A stretch of DNA of 64,000 bases from Massilia antarctica (GTDB lineage Bacteria > Pseudomonadota > Gammaproteobacteria > Burkholderiales > Burkholderiaceae_D), in NCBI RefSeq assembly GCF_015689335.1, contig NZ_CP065053.1, positions 6,448,001 through 6,512,000 on the forward strand, read 5' to 3'. Position numbers and translations under genes: made by a program. Each line of letters starts with the position of its first letter. The stretch's first letter is position 1. Below are positions 7,776 through 10,329 of the stretch, piece by piece. Below the pieces are notes generated by a model. It was given only the letters and a program-made list of their open reading frames with translations, was not told the DNA's origin and searched no databases.

Positions 7776-7887
7776 TGGCGCGAAATGCAACACAGGCAAT
7801 TTAATTTGGGTATGGTGCGGGCCTGCGAATACGGGGCGGGTATGATGAATTGTGCGGTTCCACCTAGTGCTTTTCCAGGAGAACATA

Positions 7888-8247
7888 ATGGCCTATGTCG
7901 ACGGTTTCGTACTTCCCCTCCCCACCAGCAACATCGAAAGTTACCGCGCCATGGCGACCACCTGCGGCGCGATCTGGCGCGAACATGGCGCGCTGCAGTA
8001 CCGCGAATGCATTGCCGATGACGTCAAGCCCGGCAAGCTCACGTCCTTTCCTCAAAGCGTCAACCTGCAGCCGGGCGAGACGGTCGTGTTTTCCTGGATC
8101 GTGTACGAATCGCGCGCCCACCGCGACGAAGTCAACGACAAGGTCATGAAAGACCCGCGCATGGCCGACTTCATGAAAGGGACCGACATGCCCTTCGACG
8201 GCAAACGCATGATTTACGGCGGCTTCGACATGTTTCTCGATTTGTAG
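7888..8247 (+). CDS. DUF1428-family protein (YbaA-like)
   Basis: The 119-residue product has the hallmarks of DUF1428, a small dimeric alpha/beta-barrel fold: YVDGFVLPLP at the N-terminus, WREHGALQYRECIADD, VVFSWIVYESRAHRDEVN, MKDPRM and MIYGGFD near the C-terminus. The biochemical role of the family is unknown. The ATG at 7888 is behind CAGGAGA, so this start is preferred over an upstream in-frame codon. It follows senC by 170 bp after a hairpin, so it is probably a separate unit. Confidence 0.85.
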   Translation: MAYVDGFVLPLPTSNIESYRAMATTCGAIWREHGALQYRECIADDVKPGKLTSFPQSVNLQPGETVVFSWIVYESRAHRDEVNDKVMKDPRMADFMKGTDMPFDGKRMIYGGFDMFLDL

Positions 8248-8295
8248 CTTGACGGCGGCAGTGCGCGCGCGGTTCGCCGGCGTGCACATCAGCGC

Positions 8296-8325
8296 TTGAC
8301 AAGCCGGCGCAGCCTGACGTACAGT
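8296..8325 (+). promoter_or_regulatory. Sigma-70-type promoter of the leuA leader
   Basis: A perfect -35 TTGACA (8296-8301) is separated by 18 bp from TACAGT (8320-8325). The predicted start site is about 8332, which coincides with the ATG of the first leader peptide, so that peptide may be translated from a leaderless 5' end. Confidence 0.6.
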
Positions 8326-8331
8326 GAACTC

Positions 8332-8415
8332 ATGTCTTCCTCCCTGCATCTGTCGTCTTTCCCCCTGCTCGCTGGCGCGCTATCGCTAGCGACACTACTA
8401 GCTGCACGCGCGTAA
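8332..8415 (+). CDS. Leucine-rich leader peptide 1 upstream of leuA
   Basis: This is a 27-codon mini-ORF ending in TAA. Eight of its 27 residues are Leu, and four of those are encoded by the rare codon CTA, clustered as CTA-TCG-CTA-GCG-ACA-CTA-CTA. I see no in-frame CTA in the whole of leuA. Leu-rich leader ORFs with rare Leu codons are the signature of attenuation-type control, where ribosome stalling reports scarcity of charged leucyl-tRNA. A promoter predicted immediately upstream puts the transcript start at about the ATG, which would explain the lack of a Shine-Dalgarno. Confidence 0.65.
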   Translation: MSSSLHLSSFPLLAGALSLATLLAARA

Positions 8416-8434
8416 TCCACCCGCAGTGCGCCGC

Positions 8435-8469
8435 CCGGCTCCCCAGCCGGCGTTTGTAAGCCAGCAAAC
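8435..8469 (+). promoter_or_regulatory. Two small hairpins between the leuA leader ORFs
   Basis: CCGGCT (8435-8440), loop CCCC, AGCCGG (8445-8450) form a compact 6-bp stem. Directly after it GTTTG (8452-8456) can pair with CAAAC (8465-8469). They lie 20 nt past the first leader stop and before the second, where alternative leader folds would be expected. No U-run follows, so a simple intrinsic attenuator is not evident. Confidence 0.4.
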
Positions 8470-8501
8470 AAGCCAGTAACACCCCAGGAAAGCCCGACCC
8501 G

Positions 8502-8567
8502 ATGTTCGCTCCCGTCTCCATCACTCTGTTCCTACTGCTAAAGCTACCGATCGGTTGCCTGGCCTAG
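8502..8567 (+). CDS. Leucine-rich leader peptide 2 upstream of leuA
   Basis: This second mini-ORF has 21 codons and a TAG stop, with AGGAAAG (8487-8493) about 8 nt ahead of its ATG. Six of 21 residues are Leu, three of them CTA, in the run CTG-TTC-CTA-CTG-CTA-AAG-CTA. The repeated occurrence of rare-codon Leu clusters in two independent short frames just before leuA makes chance unlikely. It ends 76 nt before the leuA start. Whether the two peptides act in series, or one senses Leu and the other sets translation of leuA, cannot be told from sequence. Confidence 0.6.
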   Translation: MFAPVSITLFLLLKLPIGCLA

Positions 8568-8643
8568 CGTACCTGTGGCCGCCCGGCAGCCTTTCGCCAC
8601 CCCGCCGCCCGGCCCCCATTCGCTTTAGTTTCAGGAGAACACC

Positions 8644-10329
8644 ATGATGTTGCAGAACCCGTCGTCGAAATACCGCGCCTTCCCTCCAGTTCATTTGACC
8701 GGCCGCCAGTGGCCGGACCGCGCCATCACCCATCCGCCGATCTGGATGAGCACCGACCTGCGCGACGGCAACCAAGCCTTGATCGAGCCGATGAGCCACG
8801 ACAAAAAGCTGCGCTTTTTCGAGATGCTGATCCAGATTGGCCTCAAGGAAATCGAAGTCGGCTTTCCGTCCGCCTCGCAGACCGACTTCGATTTCGTGCG
8901 CAAGCTGATCGATGAAGACCGCATCCCCGAGGACGTCACCATCATCGTGCTGACCCAGTCGCGCGAGGAATTGATACGCCGTACGGTTGACTCCTGCGTG
9001 GGGGCGCGGCGCGCCATCGTGCACCTGTACAACTCGGTCGCCCCCGTATTCCGCAAGGTCGTGTTCGGCATGACGCGCGAGCAGATCACGGACATCGCCG
9101 TCAGCGGCACCAAGCTGGTCAAGCAGTTGGTCAAGCAGCACCCGCAGACGGAATGGGCGTTCGAGTACACGCCGGAATCGTTCTCGACCACGGAACTCGA
9201 CTTCTCCAGGCATATCTGCGACGCCGTCAGCGAGGTCTGGCAGCCGACCCCGCATAACAAGATGATCGTCAACCTGCCGTCCACCGTCGAATGCAGCACG
9301 CCGAACGTGTATGCGGACCAGATCGAGTGGATGTCGCGCAAGCTGGCACGGCGCGACTCGCTGATCATCAGCGTGCACCCGCACAATGATCGCGGCACGG
9401 CGGTGGCCTCGGCCGAGCTGGCCATCATGGCGGGCGCCGACCGGGTCGAAGGCTGCCTGTTCGGCAATGGCGAGCGTACCGGCAACGTCGACCTCGTGAC
9501 CCTGGCGATGAACCTGTACACCCAGGGCGTGCATCCGGGGCTCGATTTCTCCGATATCGATGCCGTGCGCCAGGTGGTGGAGGAATGCAACCAGTTGCCG
9601 GTGCATCCGCGTCATCCGTATGCGGGCGACCTGGTGTTTACGGCGTTTTCCGGTTCGCACCAGGATGCGATCAAAAAAGGATTTGCCCAGCAAAAGCCGA
9701 ATGCCTTGTGGGAAGTGCCGTATTTGCCGATCGACCCGGCCGACCTGGGGCGTAGCTACGATGCGGTGATCAGGGTCAACAGCCAGTCCGGCAAGGGCGG
9801 GATGGCGTATTTGCTGGAACAGGAATTCGGCTTGAGCTTGCCACGCCGCTTGCAGATCGAGTTCAGCCGCGCGGTGCAGGCGGTGGCGGACGCCAGCGGC
9901 CGCGAGATTGCCGCGAAAGAGATTCATGCAATTTTCTGCAGCGAATATTTCGACCAGACCAGCCCGTATGCCTATAGCGCGCACAAGATGGTGGAAGACA
10001 GCAGCAGCGACGAGCCGGTGCAGATCGACATCACCCTGGCGCACCGCCAGGCGAGCCTGAGCTTGCAAGGCGGCGGAAATGGCCCGATCGATGCGTTCGT
10101 GAACGCGCTTGGCCTCGATATCAAGCTGATGGATTACCACGAGCACGCAATCGGCTCGGGCGCGAATGCCAAGGCGGCGTGTTATGTGGAGTTACGGCTG
10201 GCGAATGGCCCGACCATGTTCGGCGCCGGGATCGACAGCAATATCGTGACGGCGTCGTTCAAGGCGGTGCTCAGTGCGGTGAACCGGCAACTGGTCAGGG
10301 CGGAGCAGGAAGTCGCTGTAGCGGGGTAA
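8644..10329 (+). CDS. leuA: 2-isopropylmalate synthase LeuA
   Basis: This is the committing enzyme of leucine synthesis, condensing acetyl-CoA with 2-oxoisovalerate. The 561-residue length fits the longer LeuA type (about 550-560 residues). Visible motifs are [11 protein letters not shown] (metal- and substrate-binding strand), [13 protein letters not shown], the HPHNDRGTA metal site near residue 243, [15 protein letters not shown] near 280, and a C-terminal regulatory domain ending in YVELRLANG and [20 protein letters not shown], the probable Leu-feedback domain. The ATG at 8644 follows CAGGAGAAC. It stands alone with a 300-nt leader carrying two Leu-rich mini-ORFs, so control by leucine supply is likely. 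A long stem-loop follows. Confidence 0.95.

Follow-up and report, generated by a model that had tools for sequence, protein, structure and literature searches.

Two leucine-codon leader ORFs and a conserved RNA with two crossing helices upstream of class-II leuA in Massilia antarctica and its relatives

Classical ribosome-mediated transcription attenuators carry a leader peptide rich in the regulatory codon, followed by a U-run terminator hairpin. Attenuators of proteobacteria were reportedly treated by Vitreschak et al. in 2004. According to the part of the Shewanella study available (PMC2659441), the leuA leader of that genus, a classical gammaproteobacterial leu attenuator, has a single leader peptide with leucine codons ahead of leuA, together with a terminator, an antiterminator and alternative folds of the RNA. 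For Actinobacteria, the accessible text of Seliverstov et al. 2005 (PMC1262725) describes the LEU element, in which a leader ORF with a run of leucine codons is combined with a pseudoknot and a base stem formed by the Leu codons and the leuA Shine–Dalgarno sequence. In that text, classical attenuation was judged unlikely because mutations of the leucine codons behaved unexpectedly, and a protein-binding site was favoured. Two short ORFs in series, each controlling expression, are presented in the portion of PMC3641672 on the Salmonella mgtCBR leader.

Here, we describe the leuA leader of Massilia antarctica (RefSeq assembly GCF_015689335.1, contig NZ_CP065053.1). The window, i.e., the whole stretch of DNA that was analysed, comprises 64,000 nucleotides (contig positions 6,448,001 to 6,512,000, forward strand). 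Like classical attenuators and the Shewanella leader, it has Leu-codon leader peptides before leuA and RNA strands that may fold alternatively. Unlike them, it contains two ORFs and two helices that cross but have no strand in common, and a scan of positions 8200–8700 gave no U-run terminator. The two ORFs in series recall mgtCBR, but the ORFs of the latter answer to different signals, ATP and proline, whereas both ORFs carry Leu codons here.

No tandem leuA leader in Betaproteobacteria was found in a literature search covering titles and abstract starts of open papers, and the accessible part of PMC4833913 contains no leuA case. A search of window positions 7800–9000 against Rfam 15 gave three matches, all below the gathering threshold and taken as chance, and 12 leuA loci gave none at gathering.

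The features of the leader are collected in Table 1. The leuA gene encodes a class-II 2-isopropylmalate synthase with the Pfam domains HMGL-like, IPMS_D2 and LeuA_dimer. A gene for a DUF1428 protein (7888–8247) is located directly upstream of the leader. In addition, the same genome contains, outside the window, a second, weaker TIGR00970 match below the cut-off (G000:C1:7032197-7033675; L137, L138).

Table 1. Features of the leuA leader region, with positions counted from the first letter of the window.
Feature	Position	Strand	Details and basis
Promoter-like site	8296..8325	+	TTGACA 8296-8301, 18-nt spacer, TACAGT 8320-8325
ORF1, predicted leaderless Leu-rich leader peptide	8332..8415	+	27 codons, MSSSLHLSSFPLLAGALSLATLLAARA, then stop
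CTA codons of ORF1	8380, 8386, 8395, 8398	+	
G+C-rich hairpin CCGGCT/AGCCGG between ORF1 and ORF2	8435..8450	+	sequence
Ribosome-binding site of ORF2 (AGGAAAG)	8486..8492	+	sequence; recurs in most of 33 aligned relatives
ORF2, Leu-rich leader peptide	8502..8567	+	21 codons, MFAPVSITLFLLLKLPIGCLA, then stop (8565-8567)
CTA codons of ORF2	8532, 8538, 8544	+	
Strand A, 5′ strand of helix S1, within ORF2	8553..8563	+	GGTTGCCTGGC; alignments A1, A2
Strand B, 5′ strand of helix S2	8575..8579	+	GTGGC; alignment A2
Strand C, 3′ strand of helix S1	8581..8591	+	GCCCGGCAGCC; alignment A2
Strand D, 3′ strand of helix S2	8596..8600	+	GCCAC; alignment A2
Ribosome-binding site of leuA (AGGAG)	8633..8637	+	sequence
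leuA, class-II 2-isopropylmalate synthase	8644..10329	+	561 aa; TIGR00970 over cut-off

The presence of two Leu- and CTA-rich leader ORFs before leuA, noticed in the first-pass annotation, was confirmed, and the coordinates, lengths and codon counts given there were correct. ORF1 contains eight Leu codons (4 CTA, 3 CTG and 1 CTC) and ORF2 six (3 CTA and 3 CTG), so that 7 of the 14 are CTA. As had also been claimed, CTA is absent from leuA (0 of 43 Leu codons in 561 codons). In the 46 long ORFs of the window, which served as the background for statistics, CTA accounts for 30 of the 1737 Leu codons (1.7%). The binomial probability of at least 7 CTA among 14 Leu codons is 1.4e-9, a naive value as the ORFs had been chosen for CTA; this objection is answered by the conservation of the ORFs and their CTA codons in relatives.

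To compare leaders, leuA loci were taken from three sources: 38 of 60 relatives with a match (30 loci taken in), the 80 best among 594 stretches of named genome contigs that matched, and 41 of 60 Burkholderiaceae-type genomes (30 loci taken in). Duplicates and the locus L055, which has no DNA upstream of leuA, were left out of the counts, and the tally of ORF1 and ORF2 also leaves out loci with less than 250 nt upstream. Conservation of both ORFs and of CTA, which the first-pass annotation had set as the test of its own reading, was observed in the window's family, Oxalobacteraceae, to which the named relatives (Massilia, Janthinobacterium and Duganella) assign it: by simple patterns, 46 of 52 distinct leaders include both units, and the other six have ORF1. 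Among all 137 distinct leaders, both units were found in 56, ORF1 only in 39, ORF2 only in 20 and neither in 22, as counted with simple patterns by which four leaders fitting the RNA model (L022, L053, L054 and L076) were scored as having ORF1 alone, and L101 was perhaps scored in error as having both. The ORF2-only leaders belong to Alcaligenaceae and to Pandoraea- and Cupriavidus-type bacteria, while Burkholderia and Paraburkholderia mostly have ORF1 only. In a group of proteobacterial MAGs (L087, L091, L092 and L097, one of them labelled Thiomonas), the place of ORF1 is taken by a different short ORF, which is conserved and ends in RGLMLRLLRVDVERRLRPAR(N/T).

In the window's family, CTA makes up 206 of the 356 Leu codons in 47 distinct ORF1 and 114 of the 200 in the ten codons that directly precede strand A in 46 distinct ORF2, versus 2 of 2139 in the 52 leuA genes. 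The final Leu codon ahead of strand A is CTA in 45 of the 46 ORF2. Deeper lineages have both ORFs too, but their ORF1 often contains CTG in place of CTA; the CTA preference is therefore not universal.

The first-pass annotation placed the start of ORF1 at about the predicted transcription start, and this agrees with the promoter-like site, whose TACAGT ends 6 nt upstream of the ORF1 ATG. It is the sole sigma-70-type match between 8200 and 8700, where 0.1 is expected in shuffles, and the transcription start predicted from it coincides approximately with the A of this ATG. A search for TTGAC in the interval 32–47 nt upstream of the start codon (ATG) of short, Leu-rich ORFs found it in 69 of 108 distinct leuA loci at distances of 35–39 nt (36 nt in 49 loci); the Burkholderiaceae-type loci have the pair in 31 of 36 cases, 36–39 nt apart. 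Owing to this promoter spacing in the window and its relatives, ORF1 is predicted to be leaderless, with its start codon at the transcription start. In three actinobacterial leaders (L139, L140 and L141) and one of Alcaligenaceae (L062), the first leader ORF, as judged by eye, begins 6–7 nt after a −10-like hexamer, and a leaderless first ORF may be a general trait of such leuA leaders.

An RNA structure of ORF1 itself is weakly supported. A possible hairpin inside ORF1 (8371..8390, plus strand) shows two-sided changes in one of seven pairs, and that pair fails in 12 of 32 sequences; RNAalifold on 33 of 50 listed sequences gave a weak result for the region, with no two-sided changes. The inner GGC/GCC pairs of the hairpin between ORF1 and ORF2 recur in relatives without two-sided changes, and the hairpin is followed by CGTTTGT, which the terminator scan does not score as a U-run. 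It should be noted that in ten Burkholderiaceae-type leaders (L164–L170, L172, L173 and L176) a hairpin CGCTACG(T/A)C ... G(G/T)CGTAGCG has the ORF1 stop in its loop and, by eye, seems to covary; a further G+C-rich hairpin and a long stretch rich in C and T come after it. A pattern search for a Burkholderia-type ORF1 hairpin gave no match in 399 genomes, the pattern being probably too strict.

A conserved RNA, which the first-pass annotation did not contain, begins in the last codons of ORF2. Its strands follow the order A-B-C-D, and the UAG stop of ORF2 is situated between A and B. Helix S1 (A:C) comprises 11 positions, 10 of them paired in the window, and helix S2 (B:D) has five pairs. The two helices cross in pseudoknot order and share no strand. 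Two alignments were analysed. Alignment A1 (63 distinct sequences from 110 loci) was chosen by a pattern requiring GTGG and CCAC; in it, S1 is 96.0% paired with two-sided changes in four pairs, and the invariance of S2 is a product of that selection. The claim for S2 is therefore based on alignment A2 (44 sequences), which was found with a model without S2 pairs. In A2, which includes the chance match L132 as well as L022 and L083, two rows that are weak or partial, 95.6% of the cells are paired, and two-sided changes occur in 7 of 11 S1 pairs and 2 of 5 S2 pairs. There are 48 cells with two-sided changes versus 10.4 in shuffles and at most 11 in slid controls. Both helices thus carry compensatory changes.

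The positions of A, B, C and the stop codon relative to one another are nearly fixed: among 60 sequences, the spacing from A to B is 20–28 nt, mostly 21, and the ORF2 stop begins 12 nt after A in 52, 18 nt in seven and 72 nt in one. The last CTA of ORF2 ends 6 nt ahead of strand A. In Sphingomonas (L145), a short ORF ending RSLRLIRP stops in a long, perfect-looking inverted repeat (CCGCCCTTAGGG ... CCCTAAGGGCGG) before leuA; this leader is a possible alphaproteobacterial relative of the present design.

A search of 300 genomes of the order with model R1 gave 25 matches in 24 genomes, including the window's own, which is the single match in its genome. Of these matches, 24 are located directly before class-II leuA. 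The remaining one (L132, E 4.6e-4) sits inside an unrelated, NlpC/P60-looking ORF and was set aside as chance. Model R2, applied to 274 genomes of the class, recovered the own genome and seven others, all seven before class-II leuA; L177 and L178 among them have an identical leader. Five of these seven loci have a Leu-rich ORF at the right distance behind TTGA, according to a looser pattern. By its genomic placement, the RNA behind ORF2 belongs to leuA. As judged by the comparison of leaders, both ORFs, the rare CTA codons, the ORF1 promoter-to-ATG distance and the two helices behind ORF2 have evidently been kept by selection. The leucine-sensing reading of the first-pass annotation gains support from the kept ORFs, their CTA codons and the promoter-to-ATG distance.

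The unit resembles the LEU element as presented in the text available from Seliverstov et al. (PMC1262725). Both lie upstream of leuA and have a leader ORF in which Leu codons form a run. In both, the 5′ strand of a long helix begins within the codons that follow this run (GCR-type), with the stop codon behind, and a short second helix crosses the first; here, both helices carry compensatory changes. In four actinobacterial leaders (L139–L142), we found the order Leu run, SCR/GCR/GRR codons, long helix and short crossing helix; a script found it in three, with a last loop of 1 nt in L139, and it was seen by eye in L142, where the script chose another helix. In both groups, the Leu run is followed by the first helix strand, the stop codon and the second helix strand, and this common layout suggests that the position of the ribosome sets the fold. 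Unlike the LEU element, the leader in question has a second, upstream ORF, and the base stem of Leu codons and Shine–Dalgarno sequence was not found in 66 units. Neither R1 (E up to 10) nor R2 (E up to 1) matched L139–L142. Since the base stem and detectable homology were not found, the unit is not assigned as a member of the LEU element, although it resembles the latter in working.

Based on the above results, we suggest, as a fairly probable reading, that the leuA leader responds to leucine through two ribosome-based sensors in series. The geometry fits a sensor of this type, with rare Leu codons directly ahead of a strand gated by the position of the ribosome. When CUA-reading leucyl-tRNA is short, the ribosome would stall within the run of CUA codons in ORF2, its front edge stopping just short of strand A; A would then stay free and S1 could form. 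When leucine is plentiful, the ribosome would reach the UAG between A and B, cover A and the edge of B, and prevent S1. The fold present would then decide leuA expression. In Alcaligenaceae and Cupriavidus-type leaders, S2 with a U-run may act as an intrinsic terminator. For the window's family, where S2 is not followed by a U-run, Rho-dependent termination in the C-rich leader, or else a translational effect, is the more likely output. Between the ORF1 stop and a point close to leuA, the base composition of the window is 43% C and 23% G, whereas the first 600 nt of leuA have 33% C and 28% G; such a composition would allow Rho action without demonstrating it. ORF1, translated from the very 5′ end of the RNA and lacking a ribosome-binding site, would act as a first checkpoint of this type. 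The label "attenuator" for this leader is one that we infer from sequence.

The folding calculation backs a ribosome-gated S1 only in part. It covered 60 sequences in two states, as the free leader and with a ribosome on the last CTA, but not with a ribosome at the stop codon, since its footprint then extends to strand B. The mean S1 probability was 0.73 with the ribosome on the last CTA versus 0.57 in the free leader, and S2 was hardly predicted (mean 0.05); these means retain at least four rows (L064, L065, L066 and L070) in which a wrong CCAC was taken as D and which read zero. In the window itself, S1 was 0.08 with the ribosome on the last CTA versus 1.0 in the free leader, and it was low in this state in most of the nearest relatives. 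A direct repeat in the window (8578–8597 and 8604–8623, 85% identical) copies much of strand C just downstream, and this copy may compete for A, which would explain the odd folding result.

The reading of two serial sensors is weakened by the low S1 in the window under a stalled ribosome and the near absence of predicted S2, as well as by the lack of a strand common to S1 and S2, unlike in a classical attenuator. It is further weakened by the missing U-run behind S2 in the window's family, by the weak support for an ORF1 structure, and by deeper relatives in which ORF1 often uses CTG and ORF2 can run to the leuA start. By analogy, the leucine-codon mutations that defied classical attenuation in Actinobacteria, as given in the accessible text (PMC1262725), also count against it.

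Classical transcription attenuation in the window too, with S2 as an intrinsic terminator and S1 as an antiterminator, finds support in the T-runs behind strand D of other leaders. Such runs, defined as four or more T, follow D in 9 of the 20 Alcaligenaceae, Pandoraea- and Cupriavidus-type units (1.6 expected), and TTTTT comes directly after D in Undibacterium (L076). In the window's family, however, only 1 of 45 units has one (1.2 expected), so that an intrinsic terminator is plausible in the former group and not in this family; the absence of an obvious U-run terminator asserted in the first-pass annotation thus holds for the window and for its family. Moreover, helices without a common strand are mutually exclusive only if they are sterically incompatible, and we regard this mechanism as unlikely for the window. 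Translational control was also considered, either as in the LEU element, where the ORF2 Leu codons would pair with the leuA Shine–Dalgarno sequence until a stalled ribosome frees it, or through coupling of ORF2 to leuA. The arrangement shared with that element, in which the Leu run precedes a helix, the stop codon and a second helix, speaks for it, as do five relatives (L030, L109, L122, L127 and L177) in which the ORF2 frame runs past strand A to a TGA overlapping the leuA ATG (ATGTTGA). This overlap would allow translational coupling, but chance is also possible because class-II leuA genes often start with ATGTTGA. The ORF2 of the window, on the other hand, stops 76 nt before leuA, and the mean longest pairing run between the Leu run and the Shine–Dalgarno region in 66 units was no better than with shuffled regions (4.89 versus 4.61); the shuffled comparison refers to this mean, and 13 of the 66 units reach a run of 7. 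Translational control of either form appears rather unlikely.

The RNA behind ORF2 could be the binding site of a regulatory protein, with ORFs of little importance, as was argued for Actinobacteria in the available part of Seliverstov et al. (PMC1262725), and some of its bases are nearly invariant beyond pairing needs. Such a site would not need the CTA codons and ORF frames, which are conserved against the codon usage of leuA, and this makes the explanation very unlikely. An ORF2 acting as a sequence-specific arrest peptide, sensing leucine in the ribosome tunnel through the tail LPIGC[LR]A, is highly improbable. The tail is conserved in many Oxalobacteraceae and Alcaligenaceae, but it is encoded by strand A, other tails (e.g., GCQALRVR, GHRA and GRRA) occur in deeper relatives, and the likely ORF2 of Herbaspirillum (L053) stops upstream of A, with A and C both retained. 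The arrest-peptide reading was rejected, and the tail is best read as the shadow of strand A. Finally, any single genome alone would not settle whether such short ORFs are due to chance or are functionless coding remnants, but this is contradicted by the codons, the promoter distance and the paired bases, all of which are conserved in the family and outside it, and we rejected this explanation as having a negligible probability.

The proposed leader with two serial leucine sensors can also be placed in a wider frame, which we offer tentatively and regard as possible rather than probable. The ORF2 unit may be the proteobacterial branch of an ancient, cross-phylum pseudoknot with leucine codons and a ribosome gate, to which many Betaproteobacteria with class-II leuA would add a leaderless Leu-codon ORF upstream; this would give two gates in series for one amino acid, with no intrinsic terminator in the window's family.

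On comparative grounds, the tandem leuA leader with two Leu ORFs is real, conserved and coherent, and probably a new form of amino-acid-sensing leader. It suggests that leucine is sensed in two steps, in a way that the literature searched does not describe. It would supply a candidate rule for how leucine is sensed at the class-II leuA genes of a large bacterial group, for which Rfam and that literature gave none. It also raises the question of why two serial sensors should serve one amino acid, the first being read without a ribosome-binding site. In addition, the unexplained pseudoknot of the actinobacterial LEU element would become testable by comparison.
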